Source of the DNA: Spiroplasma endosymbiont of Nebria brevicollis
GTDB taxonomy: Bacteria > Bacillota_I > Bacilli_A > Mycoplasmatales > VBWQ01
Length of the DNA stretch: 64,000 bases
NCBI RefSeq assembly: GCF_964030895.1
Contig: NZ_OZ034986.1
Coordinates: 1-64,000, forward strand
Direction: 5' to 3'
How positions within the stretch are numbered: the first letter of the stretch is position 1; each line of letters starts with the position of its first letter. The notes beneath the pieces were generated by a model. That model was not told the DNA's origin, did no database searches, and worked only from the letters and a program-made list of their open reading frames with translations. The translations under genes and the position numbers were made by a program. This document shows positions 30,839 to 47,076 of this stretch, one piece after another.

Positions 30839-30870
30839 AAAATAGAAACTAAATTGGTTTCTATTTTTTG
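30839..30870 (+). terminator. Intrinsic terminator after rpmE
   Basis: AAAATAGAAAC (30839-30849) and GTTTCTATTTT (30857-30867) pair perfectly over 11 bp around a 7-base loop and run into T residues. Confidence 0.85.
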
Positions 30871-31012: not shown

Positions 31013-32977
31013 ATGGAATCATCTGAATTTAATATTTTAACTGCCAGTAAAAGTATGAAATTTAAATCAGAACAATCTTTTGAACTAAACTTTAGTATTA
31101 TCAATTTAACTGTTGATAAAGCAGTAAAAAATTGAAGTTTTGAAAGTAGTTATCCCGATTGTTTAGCGCTTTTTAGTAATGATGAAACTAATAGTGAAAA
31201 CTTAATTAAAGCATTAATGGGTAGTGTTCCTATTATGCAAGGTAAGATTTTAATTGATAAAAAAGAAGTTACTTATAATGCTATCGGTTTTGAACGAAAA
31301 ATGGCCTATGTTGATTTACAGTTACAAAGTTGAAATAAACTTTTTAGTGTTCAATATAATTTAGCACGAACAGCAATGCGCAATAAACCATTTTTACAAG
31401 ATATAAGCAATCATAATCAAAAAATTAAAACTGATATTGAAAACTTAAAAGATACTGGTTTAAATTTAGATTGTGGTTATTTTAAAGAAAAATTAATTAA
31501 TATTATTAAGCGTTTTATTCGCGAAACACAAAGTACGCGTATTAATTTCATCAGAGAATATGAATTCCAAATTATTCATTTTCACAAAAACTTTGTACAA
31601 GAAAAATTTAATTTTTCTGGTTGTGAAACTTTATCAGATATTTTAATTAAAAAATTTACTGCCGAAGAAAAAAATATTATTGCTAATAATAACTTATTAT
31701 TTTTACAATCTCTACAAGATCGAATTGCTAGTTTAGAAAATTTAGCAGGTGAATGTTTTTGTGGTTGTAGTCCACCAAAAGAACGACGTTCTCAGTTTCA
31801 ATTACGTGAAATTATTTTTGTTGTTAAAGAAATTAATAGTTATTTAAATAAGAAAGTTACTAATACCCGCAGTGAAATTAGAACAACTTTAAAAACTTGT
31901 AATAATCATAATCAAAATTTCAATAGTGAACTAAATCGTTTGCTTTCATATAAACAAATTAGTTTTACTCGTGCTCAAATTGATCAAATTTTAGAACAGT
32001 GAATTGACTTAGCTGAAGTACAAAGAATTAAATTCAATATGAAACAAGACTTTGTAGCTATGCAGTTACTACCTGATGAAATGCATTTATTGTTAAAAAA
32101 TATTAAAGATGAAATTAAAACTTATCATGATAAAATTTTAAAACACCCCGAATTAGAAGAAAAAGAAACATATCAAAATCATTTAAAATTATTATATAAT
32201 AGTTTGATTGATGTTCGTGATTTAATCAGTAAAAATATTTTTATGTTATTTAAAGAGTTAGAATTAAATCATTTATTAGCAATGCGTATTACACAACTAA
32301 CTGTTTTAGAACGTCAGATTATTAAAATCCTTCAACAATTAATTGTGCCTACTAAGATTTTAATTTTACATAACCCTTTTGAATTATTAAATTATGATGA
32401 TAAAGAAAAATTAACAATTTGAATTAAAAAAATTCAAAAATTTTTAAAAATTATTATTATTTTTACTACTAATACGCAAATTGATATTAATTTATTAGCA
32501 ACTAATGTTACTGTTATTGAAAATGAAATAATTATTCAACAAGGTAATGTTGGAGATGTTACTGATAAACCGCTTTCTTTAAATTTATTAAAGGAAATTA
32601 ATAAACAACACATTAATACTTCTAAGGGTGTATGAAATACTGCTAATTTGTTTTTCTATAATGTTAATCTTGGGAAATTTAATGCTGATAGTCCCCCAAT
32701 AATTGCTTTTAAATCAAATGATGTTTTATTTAGTAGAAAAAAACCAAAATTTGCTTTCTTAAAATCTTCAATAGTAGTTAAAGGTGTTATTAAAGGAATT
32801 ACTAAGATTAATGAAAAAACGTCATATTTAATTTTTGAAACTTTTATTCGTGAAGAATTTGAAGTTTTAAGTAGCAGTGAAAATATTGCAATCGGTGTTG
32901 CTGGTTGAATTAGTATTACTAAAAATTCCATTTTTGTATTTGATGGTAAAAAACAACAATTAATTGGCACATGATAG
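31013..32977 (+). CDS. Degenerate ABC-ATPase-like protein with a helical insertion
   Basis: A 654-aa intact frame (TGA as Trp) that follows the layout of MalK/UgpC/MsmK sugar-transporter ATPases. Residues 45-125 read like the ATPase start: CLALFSNDETNSENLIKALM where Walker A belongs, then QGKILIDKKEVTYNAIGFER and VDLQLQSWNKLF at the Q-loop. About 250 mostly helical residues, including CFCGC, are inserted. ERQIIKILQQLIVPTKILIL then HNPFELLNYDDKEK stands at the signature and Walker B positions. The last 150 residues look like the beta-rich regulatory domain. The Gly-Lys-Thr, LSGGQ and DE residues are all gone, so ATP hydrolysis is unlikely. Start ATG 31013 has a modest AGGACTGG upstream. Confidence 0.6.
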
Positions 32978-32990
32978 AAAGGGAATTCCT

Positions 32991-34016
32991 ATGAGTGACT
33001 TTAAAAAGATAGCAACAGAAATTTACGAACTAATAAAGAATAGTAATCCTATTATTATTCATCGTCATATTAATCCTGATGGTGATGCCCTTGGTTCACA
33101 ATGAGGATTAAAAATTATTATTGAAAATAACTTTCCTAATAAACGTGTTTTAGCACCTGGCGAAATGAATGATCATATGCTTCCATTCTTTCCAACTCCC
33201 ACTTTTGTCAAAAAAGAAGATTATGAAAATGCTTTAGTAATCATTTGTGATACTGCTAATCGTGAACGAATTAGTGGTGAATTTTGACAGCAATCTAAAA
33301 AAATTGTTAAAATTGACCATCATCCTATTGTTGATAAATATGCGAATGTTTCTTTAATTGAAGAAAAAGCCTCTGCTGCTTGCCAAGTTGTAGCAAAATG
33401 AGCAGAAATAATGAAATTAAAAGTATCTGCAGAAGCTGCTCGAAATTTATTCTTAGGTTTAGTTACTGATTCAGGAAGATTTTTATATCGTTCTGTTAAT
33501 GAAGAAACATTTCACGTTGCTAGTTTTTTGATGAAACAAAATTTTAATTTATTAGATTTATATCAAAGTTTGTATACCCAAAATTTAAAAATAGCTCGTA
33601 TTAAAGGTTATATTTTATCTAATTTTAAAATTACAGAACATGGCGTTGGTTATATTGTATTTAATGATACAATAATTAATGAATTGCAAACAACAATCAA
33701 TAAACAAAATAAAGTATTAAAACTAAAAGAAAAAGTAATGCTTAGCAAAGATGATTTAACTAGTCAAGTTAATGTTATGTCAAATATTACGGGTATTAAA
33801 ATTTGATTAATAGTTGCACATGATTGATTAGATAGTACAATTAAAGTTAGTGTTCGTAGCGCTAAGTGAATTATTAATGATGTGGTTGCTAAATTTGGTG
33901 GTGGTGGTCATCAAACAGCAGCAGGAGTTTGTTTGCAACATGTTGATGATATTGAAAAACTAATTAATAGTTTAGATAAAGTTGCAAAAAACCTGCCACA
34001 ATTAATAGTTAATTAA
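32991..34016 (+). CDS. nrnA: DHH-family phosphoesterase (NrnA-like)
   Basis: The family degrades short RNA (nanoRNA) and 3'-phosphoadenosine 5'-phosphate or cyclic dinucleotide products. The 341-aa protein has the metal motifs HRHINPDGDALGSQ near residue 22, ICDTANRERI, and KIDHHPIVD with the eponymous DHH, and the DHHA1 motif GGGGHQTAAG near residue 303. Trp are TGA. ATG 32991 follows AAAGGGA, 14 bases after the upstream gene. Exact substrate is inferred from family. Confidence 0.92.
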
Positions 34017-34040
34017 AAAAAGATATGGAGTAGAGTGAAA

Positions 34041-34631
34041 ATGTATAGTCGTTATAATGAAGGATGAATTGAAGTAATTACAGGATGTATGTTCGCCGGA
34101 AAAACCGAGGAATTTATGCGTCGCATCAATCGTTTACAATATGCTAAACGTAAGGTTTTGGTTTTTAAACCAAAAGTGGATATCCGTTACGATGCTAAAA
34201 AAGTTGTTTCTCATAAAGGAGTTTCAATTACTGCTATTGTTATAAATGATCCTTTGGAAATTTTAAAACATATTAATGAAAATGTTGCTGCGGTTGCTAT
34301 TGATGAAGTTCAATTTTTTAATCCCACAATTATTGAAGTAATTAAACAATTAGCAGATATTAATAAACAAGTTATTGTTGCTGGATTAGATCAGGATTTT
34401 CGTGGTGAACCATTTTCTGTTATGAAAGAATTATTAGCATTAGCAGAATTTGTTACTAAATTAGATGCTGTTTGTGTAGAATGTGGTCAAGCTGCAACTA
34501 GGACACAACGTATTATTAACGGTAAAGAAGCTAAATATGATGATGAAATTATTTTAATTGGTGCACAAGAGCAATATGAAGCACGTTGTCGTATCCATCA
34601 TCGAGTGATAAAAAGCAATCAAAATAAATAG
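34041..34631 (+). CDS. tdk: Thymidine kinase
   Basis: Salvage kinase making dTMP, feeding thymidylate kinase. The 196-aa product has P-loop GCMFAGKTEEFMRR at residue 16, Walker B-like VAIDEVQFF, the base-binding loop and zinc-binding CVEC and CRIHH near the end. A TGA Trp occurs at residue 8. It forms part of the frequent Firmicute order tdk-prfA-prmC. Confidence 0.95.
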
Positions 34632-34646
34632 ACCAGGTGAAGTATT

Positions 34647-35744
34647 ATGAATCAAAAAACATTAGAACAACTATCATTGCTTACTAACAAATATTATGAA
34701 ATTGAATTACAATTAGAAGATCCAAATGCCATAAGTAGAGATAAATATACTGAATTAACAAAAGAGCGAAGTAGATTAGAACCAATTGTTGAACAGTATT
34801 TAAATTATGACAAAATTGTTAAAGAAATTTTTGAAGCAAAAAAAGCACTAGCATTTGAACAAGATATTGAATTACTTGATATGCTAAAAATGGATATTAA
34901 AGAAAATGAAAATCAATTAGAAATCGCTGAAAATGATTTAAAGTTAACTTTAATACCAAAAGATATTAATGATGATAAAAATGTTCTAATTGAAATTAGA
35001 GGCGCTGTTGGTGGTGACGAAGCAAATATCTTTGCTGGTGATTTGTATAGAATGTATATTAAGTATGCTGAAACTCAACGCTGAAAAATTGAAACTATTG
35101 AAGCCAAAGAAGCACTGAATGGTGGTTTTAGTTACATTTCCTTTATGATTAAAGGCAAACATGTATTTTCTAAAATGAAATTTGAAGCTGGTGGTCATCG
35201 TGTTCAAAGAGTTCCTAAAACTGAATCACAAGGGCGCGTTCATACTTCAATCGCTACAGTGGCAGTTTTACCAGAAGTTAATGAAGTAGAAATTAAAATC
35301 AATCCTGCTGATCTAAGAATTGATACTTATCGTTCTAGTGGCGCTGGTGGGCAACATGTTAATACTACTGATTCTGCCATTAGAATTACACACATTCCAA
35401 CTGGTATTGTTGTCACATCACAAGATGGTCGTAGTCAACATGATAATAAAGATAAAGCCATGCGTGTTTTAAGAGCTAAAATGTATGAGCAACAAGTTGA
35501 AGAACAACATCAAAAACTTGGTAACTTACGAAAAAACGCGGTTGGTAGTGGTGAACGTTCTGAAAAAATTAGAACATATAATTATGCCCAAAATCGGGTA
35601 ACTGACCATCGCATTGGTTTATCTTTATTAAAGTTAGAACGTATTATGGAAGGCAGTATTGATGAAATTATTATCTCCTTAATTAGTGGAGAACAAAAAG
35701 CAAAATTAGAAAATATTGAAGAAAATATTAGCACACTAAAGTAA
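34647..35744 (+). CDS. prfA: Peptide chain release factor 1
   Basis: RF1 ends translation at UAA and UAG, the only stops in this code. The 365-aa factor carries the GGQ loop ([13 protein letters not shown]) near residue 234 and the codon-recognising P-x-T tripeptide as PKT in [10 protein letters not shown]. Its Gln-Gly-Arg His-Thr-Ser region matches RF1. A TGA Trp is at 35082. AGGTGAAG precedes ATG 34647. As in all TGA=Trp mollicutes, RF2 is expected to be missing. Confidence 0.96.
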
Positions 35745-36179: not shown

Positions 36180-37013
36180 ATGACATATAAAGATTATTTA
36201 TTAGCTGCTAAACATATTAATCATAATGATGAAAAAGTTAATAAAATTATCTTATTATATTTTATTGAAAAAGATTTATCATGATTGTATGCTAACATGG
36301 ATACAAAAATAGAAGATACTTTTTTAGAACAATATTTACTTTTAATTGAAAAATATGTTGCTGGTTATCCTTTACAATATATTATTCGTTATGAATATTT
36401 TTATGGTAATAAATTCTTTGTTGATAATCGTGTTTTAATTCCACGCAGTGAAACTGAAGAATTAATAAATTATGTTTTTGACTATGCCAAGAACATTTTT
36501 CATGATGATAAGTTATCAATTTTAGATTTAGGAACTGGTAGTGGCGCAATCGCCATTAGCGTTGCTTTAGCAAAACCACAATGAGAAATAGTAGCTACTG
36601 ATATTAGCATTGCTGCCTTGGAAGTCGCAAAAATAAATGGTAAAAATTATAATTTAAATAATATTAAATTTATAGAAAGTGACTTATTTAGTAATTTAAA
36701 AAATCACAAATTTAATATTATTATTTCTAATCCCCCATATATTGATGAAACATCTGATACATATCTTATGTCCAATTTGCAATATGAACCAAAATCAGCA
36801 TTATTTGCTGAAGAAAATGGTTTATTATTATATAAATTAATTTTTCAACATTGTTCTGAATTTGTCACTAAACCATTTTTATTGGCATTTGAATTTGGTT
36901 TTGACCAAAAAGAAGTATTAGAAATATTAGTTAAAAAATACTTATATAATTACCATTATCAGTTTGTTAAAGATATCAATGGTAAATGGAGAATGCTTTT
37001 TGTTTGGCAGTAA
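36180..37013 (+). CDS. prmC: Release factor glutamine methyltransferase
   Basis: PrmC methylates the glutamine of the GGQ loop in RF1, encoded just upstream. The 277-aa product has an N-terminal helical domain, PLQYIIRYEYFYG, LIPRSETEELI, the SAM motif DLGTGSGAIAIS near residue 117 and the catalytic NPPY (IISNPPYIDET) near residue 182. GGAG at 36167 precedes ATG 36180. A terminator follows. Confidence 0.95.
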
Positions 37014-42409: not shown

Positions 42410-44075
42410 ATGTTTAAAACAAAAACTTATGAACATAAGTTTTATTTAATCACTATCAAAGACCTTTTAAAAACAAAAGTTACTTAATTTTTTTCAACAT
42501 TTCTATTTATAGTTTTATTGTTATTTACCATTTTTAGTATTAACACATATGGTAATCCAGAAAAAAATATGTTTAAAATCATTAGTTTTTATCAGCGGTT
42601 ATTACTAATTTTGTATTTACCATTAATAGCATTTTATTCTGCTTATATTACAATTAAAATTTATAGTCAACAAATTGATAATGGTATTATATTAGTTTAT
42701 ACATCATTGCCACTATCAAAGACTAAAATTTCATTTTATAAAATTTTAGGATTAATATCATTTTTATTAGTAATATCTGGGTTTTTTGCTGTTATAAATG
42801 GTAGAACTTATTTTAATGCTTTAATGTTAGATATTATTAAAACCTGACCTTTAATTAGTATTTTCCTTTGCACCTTTGTATCTTTAGTTTTTTTAATTTC
42901 GGTTTGGTGTGGTTCTAAACTAACAATATTATTATCATCTATTTTTACTTTTATTTGTGCCATTTCAATGGTTATTTTACCAATGCTACAAGCAGTAAAA
43001 GAGTCTCAACACTCTTATTGAAATTTTTCACAAAATGAAAAATTTAAAGATGGTCTAAATAATGCAAACCTTAGTTCCAATTTTATTGGCAAAGATTTAT
43101 TTAACATTGAAGATATTAAATATTTATATCATAATGGTATCTTATCTGATCAACCAAATCCAAATTTACTTGATGATAATAATCCTTTTACTTTTAGTTT
43201 GTTTGATAGATCAACAAAAAGCAAAGTTGATTTAAAAACTCAATTTAATAACACAACTCATATTAAAACTAGTGCACAAACTTTAATTAATATTTTAAAA
43301 AAATCAATCACCAATTAAATAACAGTATAGCAGTTTTGTTTATAGTACTGACATTACTCCAACTAGTAAGTTTAACCAAGACACTTATGATGAAGAAAAT
43401 GATATCATAAATAACGTAAATAACACTAATTATAAAAACCAACTTAACAATGATAAAGATGAATGAAAATCAAAAACTAATAGTTTGAAAAAATATGACA
43501 TTAATTATCAGTTGGACTATCGAGACTTTGCTGTTGTTTTATGAACAATTTATCATCAATTAGGCTTAACAACAACACTAGCAGATATTAAATCAAACTT
43601 AACTGAAACTTAATTTCGAACTAAAATTAATTTAATCGGTAATCTTAATATTTTTAATTATATTTTAGATAAAACAATTGAATATACTAAACCTCATAAA
43701 TATAAAAATAGTTCAACATCACCAGAATATCCAAATCTTTATACAGATATAAAAAAAAGTATGAAGTCAAACTGAAACTCTTTTGCTATAAATCCGCTTA
43801 TGAACGTTGCTACTAGTTTACTAATGATGCCAACTAATGATAATAAGAGTGATAGTAACCTTTTAATTGGAATTATTTCATCTCCTACTTTAGTATACCC
43901 CTATACATATGATATTAATAATATTTATGAATTAAACAATGATACTGTTATTGTAACTAGTGCTGAACAAAAACCAATTATTAATATTTATGGAGTGGGG
44001 GTCACTTATCTTATTATTGCCTTATTATTTTTCACTATCAGTTTTGTTATCATTCAGAGAAAGGATGTTAGTTAA
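42410..44075 (+). pseudogene. ABC-2-type exporter permease, multiply broken
   Basis: The 5' part has the layout of an ABC-2 permease: a cytoplasmic start MFKTKTYEHKFYLITIKDLL, then helices (FLFIVLLLFTIFSI, LLILYLPLIAFYSAYITI, ILGLISFLLVISGFF and two more), including the typical SLPLSKTKISFYK loop, and a long outside domain. Lesions seen: TAA at 42485-42487 (a Trp TGA changed to TAA fits), a stop near 43316 with the frame shifting by one, and TAA at about 43611. The last helix (YLIIALLFFTISFVIIQ) leads to TAA 44073. The ATPase gene behind is also broken. Substrate unknown. Confidence 0.75.
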
Positions 44076-44076
44076 T

Positions 44077-45002
44077 ATGAGCAGTAATCAACAAGTTTTA
44101 ACTATTACTAATCTTAATAAAACTTTTAAAAGTAACCATGTATTAAAAGACTTAAGTTGTACCCTTGAACAAGGCAAAGTTTATGGATTAATTGGAAAAA
44201 ATGGTGCTGGCAAAACTACTTTAATTAAATGTATTATTGGAGCTTTACTTACTGACAGTGGTAAAATCTTAATCAATAATATTTCTAATCAGAAAACTAA
44301 AGAAAAACCACCAATTGCTTACATACCTGAAAAAATACTTTTCCCAATGAATATAATACTAAGCAATTTCTAACCCATATTGCTACCATTAAAGGTAATA
44401 GTAAAACTCAAACTAAATTAATAGTAAACAATATTTTACAACAATATAATTTATCTAATATTGCTAAAATTAACCCTAATAAATTATCTAGTGGTATGCA
44501 AAAGCAATTAATGATTGATGCTATGCTTATTGGTGACCCCAATATTATAATTATGGATGAACCAACTGTTAATTTAGACCCCAATAACCGTTTCATTTTT
44601 TTTACTAAAATTAACACTTTTAAAATTCAAAACAAGACAGTAATTATTTCCTCACATATTCTTGATGAATTAGCCAATGTTGCTGATGAATTTTTAATTT
44701 TAGATGAAGGGAAAATTACTACTAAAGAATTTATTAATAAAAATGATAATTATTGTGTAATTAAAACCTTTACCGAAGATGATTTTACAAAAATATTAGA
44801 TGCATTAGAAAACCAAATCGTACAAATTATTAAAACTGATAAAACAAATAACGAAGCCATTTTACAATTAAAACTTAATATTAAAATTCAAGATATTAAT
44901 TATTTAGCATATAAAAATAAAATCACACTTGCTAAGTGTGAAAAATATCAAGATCAAATTTCTGATATTTATCATATTTTTAATTCTAATGAACCAAAAT
45001 AA
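44077..45002 (+). pseudogene. ABC-2-type exporter ATPase with a frameshift
   Basis: The first frame from ATG 44077 has Walker A GKNGAGKTTLIKC and runs to a stop at 44373. The next frame carries the rest: FLTHIATIKGNSKTQTK, a signature-like LSSGMQKQLMIDAML, Walker B NIIIMDEPTVNLDP, and the H-loop SSHILDELA. One base is missing near 44345. Rejoined it would be about 308 aa, normal for this family. All catalytic motifs are still present, suggesting a recent lesion. Confidence 0.85.
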
Positions 45003-45192
45003 AATTAAGATTACTTATTATTAAAATTAGTAAATGTTATACTTTTATTTTCATTTATTTATTTTTATTGTTCTTTTTTTAACATTATTATAAGATGATG
45101 ACATTCATAATTTGTAAAAGTAATGTTTTATGAAAAAACGTTGAAAACTATGGGGAATATGATAGTCTTTACTTATAAACATAGCAGTTTTT

Positions 45193-45229
45193 AACCCATT
45201 ACCTTTATTCTTAAAGTGAATGGGTTTTT
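45193..45229 (+). terminator. Terminator in the debris region
   Basis: AACCCATT (45193-45200) pairs with AATGGGTT (45219-45226), followed by TTT. Confidence 0.65.
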
Positions 45230-45261
45230 ATGTTGAAATGAGAAGAAAAGGAGACAAGATA

Positions 45262-45742
45262 ATGGGAAATGAAAGTATTTTAAGTGTAATTGAAAAACAA
45301 AAAATAGAACTACAAAAAAACAAGAATCAAATTCAAATCAAATTAAAAAAATAGTGTTTGAAAGAGATTTTTAATTTGCCTTAGTTGTGGTTTATATAAT
45401 CCTATTGCTAAATTAAAAGAACAAAACAAAAACCTTACTTTAGAAATTGAACATTATGATGATTTACTTGAATTTTCTAATAAAGGGGTGGTTGTTTTAG
45501 AAGAAAGTTGTACAGAACTTCAAAATCAAGAAAAATTAAATGATGGAGTTATTAGCAGTAATAAAGAAAAATCAAAAAAATACGTAGAAATATTAACAAA
45601 TAAAGAAAATCTTCTTGCTGAACTTGCTGTTAAAAAACAAACAGAACCTGCTGATATTTTTGATAGCAAAGTGAAAAGAGATATAAATAAGGAACATGCC
45701 AATACTGGATCACCGTTTAGTAGTATAGTTAAAACCTACTAA
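45262..45742 (+). pseudogene. Coiled-coil protein gene with a frameshift, unknown
   Basis: From ATG 45262 after AAGGAGA a 30-codon Lys/Gln-rich helix ends at TAG near 45353. The next frame continues WKRFLICLSCGLYNPIAKL, then a coiled-coil stretch (EQNKNLTLEIEHYDDLLEF) and a charged tail ending TGSPFSSIVKTY at 45742. One base missing near 45345 would fuse them into about 160 aa. The family is not recognised; position next to transposase debris suggests a mobile-element passenger. Confidence 0.4.
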
Positions 45743-45792
45743 AGATATCTAATTAATTTTAATGGCTAGGTACTCATTTACGACGGCTAGTT

Positions 45793-46185
45793 TTGTTTCT
45801 TTTGAATAAGTCTTATAAGTTCATTGTTTCCTCCTATAGTGTTAATTATAAGTACAAATTGAAATATTTATTAAACTTATCTAGCTCATGCCGAAAAGAA
45901 ATAGTCAGACTATTTAGAAATGGAACAAGTGTAAAAGAATTAGCTAACAACTATGGAGTTTCTACCCATCAAATTAGTAATATCTTAAGAGATTTCATTA
46001 AATATGGAGATAAAAGTTTTACAATTAGAGAATCAGGTAAACAATCTTTTAATACCCTTCTTAGTGAAGAACAGCAAAAAATTCATTTATTGGAAAAGAA
46101 AATTAAGAAACTAGAGGTGCAAGAGGAATTATCAAAAAAATTGGAGACTTATCTTGAACAAATAAAGACCAACAAAAGTGAATAA
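45793..46185 (+). CDS. IS3-type transposase OrfA-like protein (element remnant)
   Basis: The 130-aa product has a helix-turn-helix (RKEIVRLFRNGTSVKELANN then YGVSTHQISNILRDF, residues 35-70) and a leucine-zipper-like coil (EEQQKIHLLEKKIKKLEVQE), the plan of IS3-family OrfA. No OrfB integrase domain follows, and no terminal inverted repeats are visible, so the element is truncated. The first 30 residues do not belong to the family and suggest a start further in. A general DNA-binding protein is the alternative. Confidence 0.5.
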   Translation: MFLLNKSYKFIVSSYSVNYKYKLKYLLNLSSSCRKEIVRLFRNGTSVKELANNYGVSTHQISNILRDFIKYGDKSFTIRESGKQSFNTLLSEEQQKIHLLEKKIKKLEVQEELSKKLETYLEQIKTNKSE

Positions 46186-46431
46186 TTGTTAACTTTATTT
46201 TAAAAAACCAAAAACAATACGGAATTCATCCCATATGCGATAATTAAATTTAATTCTTCATCGATGAATTAATTTAAAGGACAATGATAATGTCTCATTT
46301 CAGTGTGCAAAAATTTATTTACTTTTTTATTGTTATTTTATTGATTTATAAATTAAAAGGCGTAAAATTTCATATTAGTATATATTTTATTTTTTGAAAT
46401 ATAAACATTAAAAAATGAAGGAGTATTTTTA
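46186..46431. other. Intergenic region upstream of upp
   Basis: 246 bases with no convincing gene. It contains an imperfect palindrome AATTCTTCATCGATGAATT near 46250 and A/T-rich promoter-like sequence close to upp. Possible leftover of the truncated insertion sequence; nothing more can be supported. Confidence 0.4.
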
Positions 46432-47076
46432 GTGGAAAATAATAAAAATTTATTTATTGTAAACCATCCTTTAATACTAGATAAGCTAACAAGAATTAGA
46501 AATCAGAATACACAAAAAAAAGATTTCAAAGAAAACTTGAGTGAAATTTCTACTTTAATGGCTTATGAAGTGTTTAAAAATTTACCAGTAGATGACATTG
46601 AAATCCAAACTCCAATAACTAAAGTTACTGGTAAAACATTAAGTAAAACTATTATTCTTTGTCCTATCTTACGAGCAGGTTTAGGAATGACGAACGGTTT
46701 TGAATATGTAGTACCTAATGCTATTATTAGTCATATTGGACTTTATCGTAATGAAGAGACATTAAAACCACATAATTATTTTTTTAAGTATCCAAAAAAT
46801 ATTGCTAACATGGATGATGCTTTAGTATTCATTTTAGATCCAATGCTTGCCACAGGTGGCACTGCTAATGCTGCCATTAAAGAGTTAAAAAAAGTTGGAT
46901 TTAAACACATTACTTTAGTCGCCATTGTTGGTGCACCAGTTGCCATTAAAAAAATTGAACAAAAAAACCCAGATGTTAAAATATACCTATCAGCATTAGA
47001 TAAAAATTTAAATGATGATGGTTATATTGTTCCTGGTTTAGGTGATGCTGGTGACAGAATTTTCGGAACTAAATAA
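46432..47076 (+). CDS. upp: Uracil phosphoribosyltransferase
   Basis: The salvage enzyme makes UMP from uracil and PRPP. It is 214 aa starting at GTG 46432 after AAGGAG. Conserved stretches are ILCPILRAGLGM near residue 78, the PRPP loop VFILDPMLATGGTA near residue 127 and GLGDAGDRIFG at the C-terminus. Position just before the ATP synthase operon matches Bacillus. Confidence 0.96.
   Translation: MENNKNLFIVNHPLILDKLTRIRNQNTQKKDFKENLSEISTLMAYEVFKNLPVDDIEIQTPITKVTGKTLSKTIILCPILRAGLGMTNGFEYVVPNAIISHIGLYRNEETLKPHNYFFKYPKNIANMDDALVFILDPMLATGGTANAAIKELKKVGFKHITLVAIVGAPVAIKKIEQKNPDVKIYLSALDKNLNDDGYIVPGLGDAGDRIFGTK

Follow-up and report, generated by a model that had tools for sequence, protein, structure and literature searches.

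A putatively non-catalytic relative of MalK/UgpC-type ABC ATPases encoded upstream of nrnA in Spiroplasma and related mollicutes

The locus and its degenerate ATP site

We analyzed a stretch of 64,000 nucleotides (the window) from the Spiroplasma endosymbiont of Nebria brevicollis, whose genome consists of one 1.49-Mb contig. The window encodes a protein that resembles the ATP-binding cassette (ABC) ATPases of sugar importers but has lost their ATP site. We refer to this open reading frame (ORF), located at 31013..32977 on the forward strand, and to its orthologues as X. A preliminary description, made from the sequence alone, had proposed an intact 654-residue frame with the order of an ABC sugar-transporter ATPase. 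The frame is indeed intact: read with code 4 (translation table 4), it runs from an ATG at 31013 to a TAG ending at 32977, encodes 654 residues, and contains seven TGA codons read as tryptophan. Among named relatives, Spiroplasma sp. AdecLV25b is the nearest (94%), followed by S. ixodetis SHM (74%) and S. platyhelix PALS-1 (51%).

All neighboring genes described here lie on the same strand. Upstream of X is rpmE (ribosomal protein L31, 30507..30830), a conserved neighbor, followed by a terminator-like hairpin recognized by eye (30842..30869; an 8-bp stem, ATAGAAAC/GTTTCTAT, then T6). An nrnA-like gene for a DHH phosphoesterase (32991..34016) starts 13 bp downstream of X and is preceded by the ribosome site AGAAAGGG; it is followed by tdk (34035..34631), prfA (34647..35744), and prmC (36180..37013). 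Elsewhere in the window, a series of short ORFs (43761-46432) may represent a transporter gene that has decayed or been split; one of them, 44409-44750, matches an ABC ATPase in its C-terminal part.

The homology of X to ABC ATPases is real, though weak by single sequences, and is firm by profile. Single-sequence searches matched X to NCBIfam GlcV (E 7e-11, residues 403-642) and to GlcV/MalK-type structures in the PDB (E 2e-7), while the match to Pfam ABC_tran (E 0.011) missed the family cut-off; we found no Pfam or NCBIfam family dedicated to X. A profile of 26 relatives matched ModC (3d31, E 9e-18) and also GlcV (1oxx, positions 395-624), in line with the MalK/MsmK-like character that had been proposed. 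When aligned by hhalign to its active paralogues, described below, X was matched over both the nucleotide-binding domain (NBD) and the C-terminal domain (99.7%, E 1.6e-26, 593 columns). The latter corresponds to a beta-rich region at 32603..32974 that is MalK-type, regulatory/TOBE-like, in a low-confidence model. X thus shares with MalK, GlcV, and ModC the order of the NBD and, by profile match, the C-terminal domain; these importer ATPases differ in being catalytic, lacking an insert, and depending on MalFG-type permeases. ABC-F proteins are defined by two NBDs per chain, whereas X has a single NBD split by an insert.

Aligning 38 X proteins with 14 paralogues that retain an ATP site revealed that each catalytic motif is replaced, as had been suggested from the single sequence. 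In the window, Walker A reads SNDETNSEN (residues 55-63, 31175..31201) instead of GPSGCGKST, the signature reads LTVLERQI (residues 429-436, 32297..32320) in place of LSGGQQQR, and Walker B reads ILILHNP (residues 449-455, 32357..32377), with LLLDEP changed to LILHNP. The Q-loop glutamine has become leucine, the switch histidine has become asparagine, and the D-loop is also gone. Across the alignment, glycines 4 and 6 of Walker A, the second glycine and the glutamine of the signature, the Walker B glutamate, the D-loop aspartate, and the switch histidine occur in none of the 38 X proteins and in all 14 paralogues. The P-loop GxxGxGK[ST] and the LSGGQ signature are likewise absent from all 38; five have a lysine in the Walker A lysine column, without the surrounding P-loop. 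The non-catalytic glycines G70 and G77 are kept in 36-37 of the 38. These comparisons indicate that X is a non-catalytic relative of the MalK/UgpC-type ABC ATPases.

Distribution, synteny, and selection

To define the range of X, we scanned 320 genomes of the order with the 26-member profile (A4) at a threshold of E 1e-40. Matches were found in 74 genomes, one locus each, comprising every member of three families (9/9 in f1, 60/60 in f8, and 5/5 in f10); none was found in the other 246 genomes with this profile, and no relatives were found among viral contigs. We read the 74 genomes as being of Spiroplasma, Mesoplasma, and Mycoplasma mycoides type, with g37 as the mycoides group and g31 as Mesoplasma-like. 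Intact orthologues span 611-709 residues. Earlier scans, which scored just three candidates per genome, had suggested patchy loss in g31 and parts of g36 and g37. That idea was dropped because the broader profile recovered matches and because X was found at the tdk locus in each of ten f8 genomes that had lacked a clear match.

The gene block rpmE-X-nrnA-[tdk]-prfA-prmC recurs in nearly all loci read across the three families; the exceptions are one locus without a labeled tdk (L092) and some g32 genomes with additional genes between rpmE and X. Wherever X is intact, nrnA is the next gene, at a spacing of -40 to +33 bp (47 loci). Two outlying spacings, 552 and 998, apparently stem from a split copy of X in genome G174 and a tandem second DHH gene in genome G151. 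In the latter (L140, 3524-5455), the DHH pair lies between X and tdk and groups together in the DHH tree, which indicates a local duplication. Only two of the 74 copies of X are broken, one by internal stops (G169, L047 4181-6120) and one by splitting (G174, L100 4772-6710).

The preliminary description had viewed X as a peculiarity of an eroding genome. Since X is universal, single-copy, and syntenic in three families, it is no product of erosion in one genome, and the alignment indicates that the loss of the ATP site is older than the split of these families. The expectation that the protein is maintained held: X evolves under purifying selection with domain-specific constraint. Pairwise ratios of nonsynonymous to synonymous substitution rates (dN/dS; NG86, code 4) were 0.14 against the 94%-identical relative (L003) and 0.28 against the 74%-identical one (L004), comparable to those of the neighbors nrnA (0.18 and 0.22) and prmC (0.16 and 0.27). 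The lowest values were those of the insert (0.05 and 0.18).

The helical insert and the active paralogues

The insert (residues 124-394, 31382..32194) lies within the helical subdomain of the NBD and is the most conserved region of X. An insert of about 250 helical residues had been noted from the single sequence; its extent is close to that (~271 residues), with helices predicted at low confidence, but it is no addition to X. Active mollicute UgpC-like ATPases, in which the Q-loop and the signature are 258-484 residues apart (compared with 48 in the PotA of the window's genome), carry a homologous insert that aligns over its full length to that of X (95%, score 62, 245 columns; reversed and shuffled controls scored 11-15). 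The insert is thus ancestral and was not gained during decay.

These insert-bearing ATPases (e.g., L037, L040, L043, and L045, with L043 matching NCBIfam UgpC at E 8e-104) are homologous to X from end to end, with the insert at the same point and a C-terminal domain, and some share an operon with a DHH gene. They differ in retaining all ATP-site motifs, in being accompanied by permeases, a surface lipoprotein, and sometimes an SNase lipoprotein, and in lacking the insert C-x-C described below. In a tree obtained by a quick search and with a long X stem, all X proteins group as a single clade (SH-aLRT 100) nested among the insert-bearing ATPases, apart from PotA and from UgpC types that lack the insert. 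The DHH proteins split in parallel, with those linked to X and those linked to active paralogues in separate clades (90 and 98); within the limited sampling, this is consistent with an ATPase and a DHH gene having been duplicated as a pair.

Several of the active paralogues reside in importer operons with UgpA/UgpE-like permeases and a large surface lipoprotein. A DHH gene is found near an active paralogue in g36/g37 and in one f7 genome, and an SNase lipoprotein lies beside an MG185-type lipoprotein in the operons of two f7 genomes. This make-up suggests that the substrates of such "UgpC" importers may be breakdown products of nucleic acids and not glycerol phosphate. At L114 (3261-4028) and L116 (2429-3370), the SNase lipoprotein is flanked by the MG185-type lipoprotein and the UgpC-like ATPase. 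Separately, an insert-bearing UgpC-like ATPase of genome G201 (L044, 6120-7913) has an odd signature, LSWGQQQR, and the Walker B context LLMDEALSHLD; it is possibly another ATPase with altered activity.

Seven residues are invariant in all 38 X proteins (31 representatives under 80% identity; median pairwise identity 27%), and all seven lie inside the insert: D236 (31718..31720), C248 and C250 (31754..31762), W330, Q345, L353, and H372 (32126..32128). In the wider A4 set, D236, C248, C250, H372, and N535 are still invariant. The C-x-C is absent from the insert of all 14 active paralogues, which makes this site specific to X. It forms part of a CFCGC (residues 248-252) that had been proposed as a possible metal ligand: its first two cysteines are kept family-wide, while the third, conserved only in the source genome's own family, was rejected as part of the motif. 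In 5 of the 31 representatives, the protein has no cysteine beyond the C-x-C. With H372, in a Y371-H372 pair, as the candidate third ligand, this conservation makes a metal or thiol site in the insert probable. The insert had no match in Pfam, and a fold search returned chiefly long-helix and coiled-coil matches (best E 0.14), which we counted as no result.

Possible roles of X

We propose that X arose by duplication, beside a DHH (NrnA) gene, of a mollicute UgpC/MalK-type ATPase that already had its large helical insert. This copy would have lost every ATP-site residue as well as its permeases while retaining the ABC scaffold and the C-terminal domain, and would have acquired the invariant D...C-x-C...W...Q...L...H constellation in the insert. 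X would then neither hydrolyze ATP nor drive transport; most likely, it would serve in the cytosol as an accessory protein that acts by way of its insert, which may hold a structural or redox-sensitive metal, probably zinc, at C248/C250/H372. We hold with good confidence that X is a non-catalytic protein working through its insert. Its most probable client would be the nanoRNase/pAp phosphatase NrnA, the best single candidate because it is encoded by the constant, tightly spaced next gene; this assignment is tentative. Taken as a whole, the account of an ancient, retired ABC ATPase acting as an insert-borne accessory of NrnA with a metal site is one that we modestly favor, with metal binding, the client, and duplication as a pair as its conjectural parts. 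A regulatory or scaffolding role, as raised in the preliminary description, is possible.

Several points weigh against this account. The downstream DHH gene is retained in both genomes with a broken X, and therefore NrnA is not strictly dependent on X. Position in an operon can also be inert, as tdk, prfA, and prmC belong to the same block. AlphaFold2, run on a five-sequence input, yielded poor models (mean predicted local distance difference test, pLDDT, of 41 (40.8) for the full length and 65 for the insert), in which the C-x-C and the histidine fall in the weakest stretches of the insert, so that clustering of C248, C250, and H372 is conjectural. MalK was among the top VIA matches of the X model, at a Z of 6.8 in the unreliable range; this agrees with the sequence but carries little weight. 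The account as a whole derives from sequence analysis rather than biochemistry.

The alternative that survives best, though we consider it rather unlikely, is a cytosolic role tied to translation or RNA and not to NrnA, such as ribosome or RNA binding by the insert. X sits between rpmE and the block containing prfA-prmC, and C-x-C/His sites are common in RNA-binding zinc proteins; a terminator-like hairpin, however, stands between rpmE and X, and the insert matched nothing in Pfam or the fold search.

It is less probable still that X is a non-catalytic transporter subunit, either paired, as the inactive half, with an active NBD in a heterodimer or capping a permease. Heterodimeric ABC exporters can contain a degenerate NBD that lacks catalytic residues, and X is homologous to transporter ATPases up to and including the C-terminal domain. 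Such degenerate NBDs nevertheless adjoin a competent one, whereas X lacks all the motifs and no transmembrane partner was found: no permease adjoins it in the conserved block at the loci read. The only BPD permease pairs of the source genome, at 332-333 kb and at 906-907 kb, adjoin other ATPase genes, in one case PotA-like and in the other a further ABC-ATPase match, and no insert-bearing active paralogue was found in this genome or in those of its family. The search for a paired permease called for by the preliminary description therefore came out negative, and a transporter subunit was rejected for this genome.

That X is a fading relic retained by chance in slowly eroding genomes is barely credible: its high divergence and two broken copies would fit, but 72 of 74 copies in three families show no sign of breakage, dN/dS far under 1 with domain-specific constraint already contradicts it, and the gene was kept in JCVI-syn3.0 if the correspondence proposed below holds; a recent pseudogene was rejected on dN/dS and the 74-genome distribution.

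Returning to the proposed accessory of NrnA, its closest known counterpart is MMSYN1_0138 of the minimal cell JCVI-syn3.0, described as ABC-like with a non-conserved ATP site (PMC6629657), as is X. The published passage describing it does not mention a family, an insert, a C-x-C, or any evolutionary setting. MMSYN1_0138 precedes the quasi-essential MMSYN1_0139, an NrnA-type DHH protein (PMC6609329, PMC4993169), just as X directly precedes nrnA in g37 genomes (L131 and L132). Given this position and the matching description, X is very likely the orthologue of MMSYN1_0138, compared by gene number, order, and description rather than by sequence. A bolder version, in which X founds a distinct family of zinc or thiol-switch sensors that bind and control NrnA lineage-wide and are kept in the minimal cell, strikes us as doubtful.

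If X is MMSYN1_0138, a minimal-cell gene of unknown function moves from "ABC-like, doubtful" to a defined family that is lineage-universal, apparently catalytically dead throughout, and marked by a new invariant insert site and a constant neighbor, nrnA. Three specific residues (C248, C250, and H372) and one partner are now testable. More broadly, X would clearly exemplify an ABC ATPase that no longer serves transport and has apparently been retained across a whole bacterial lineage for another job.
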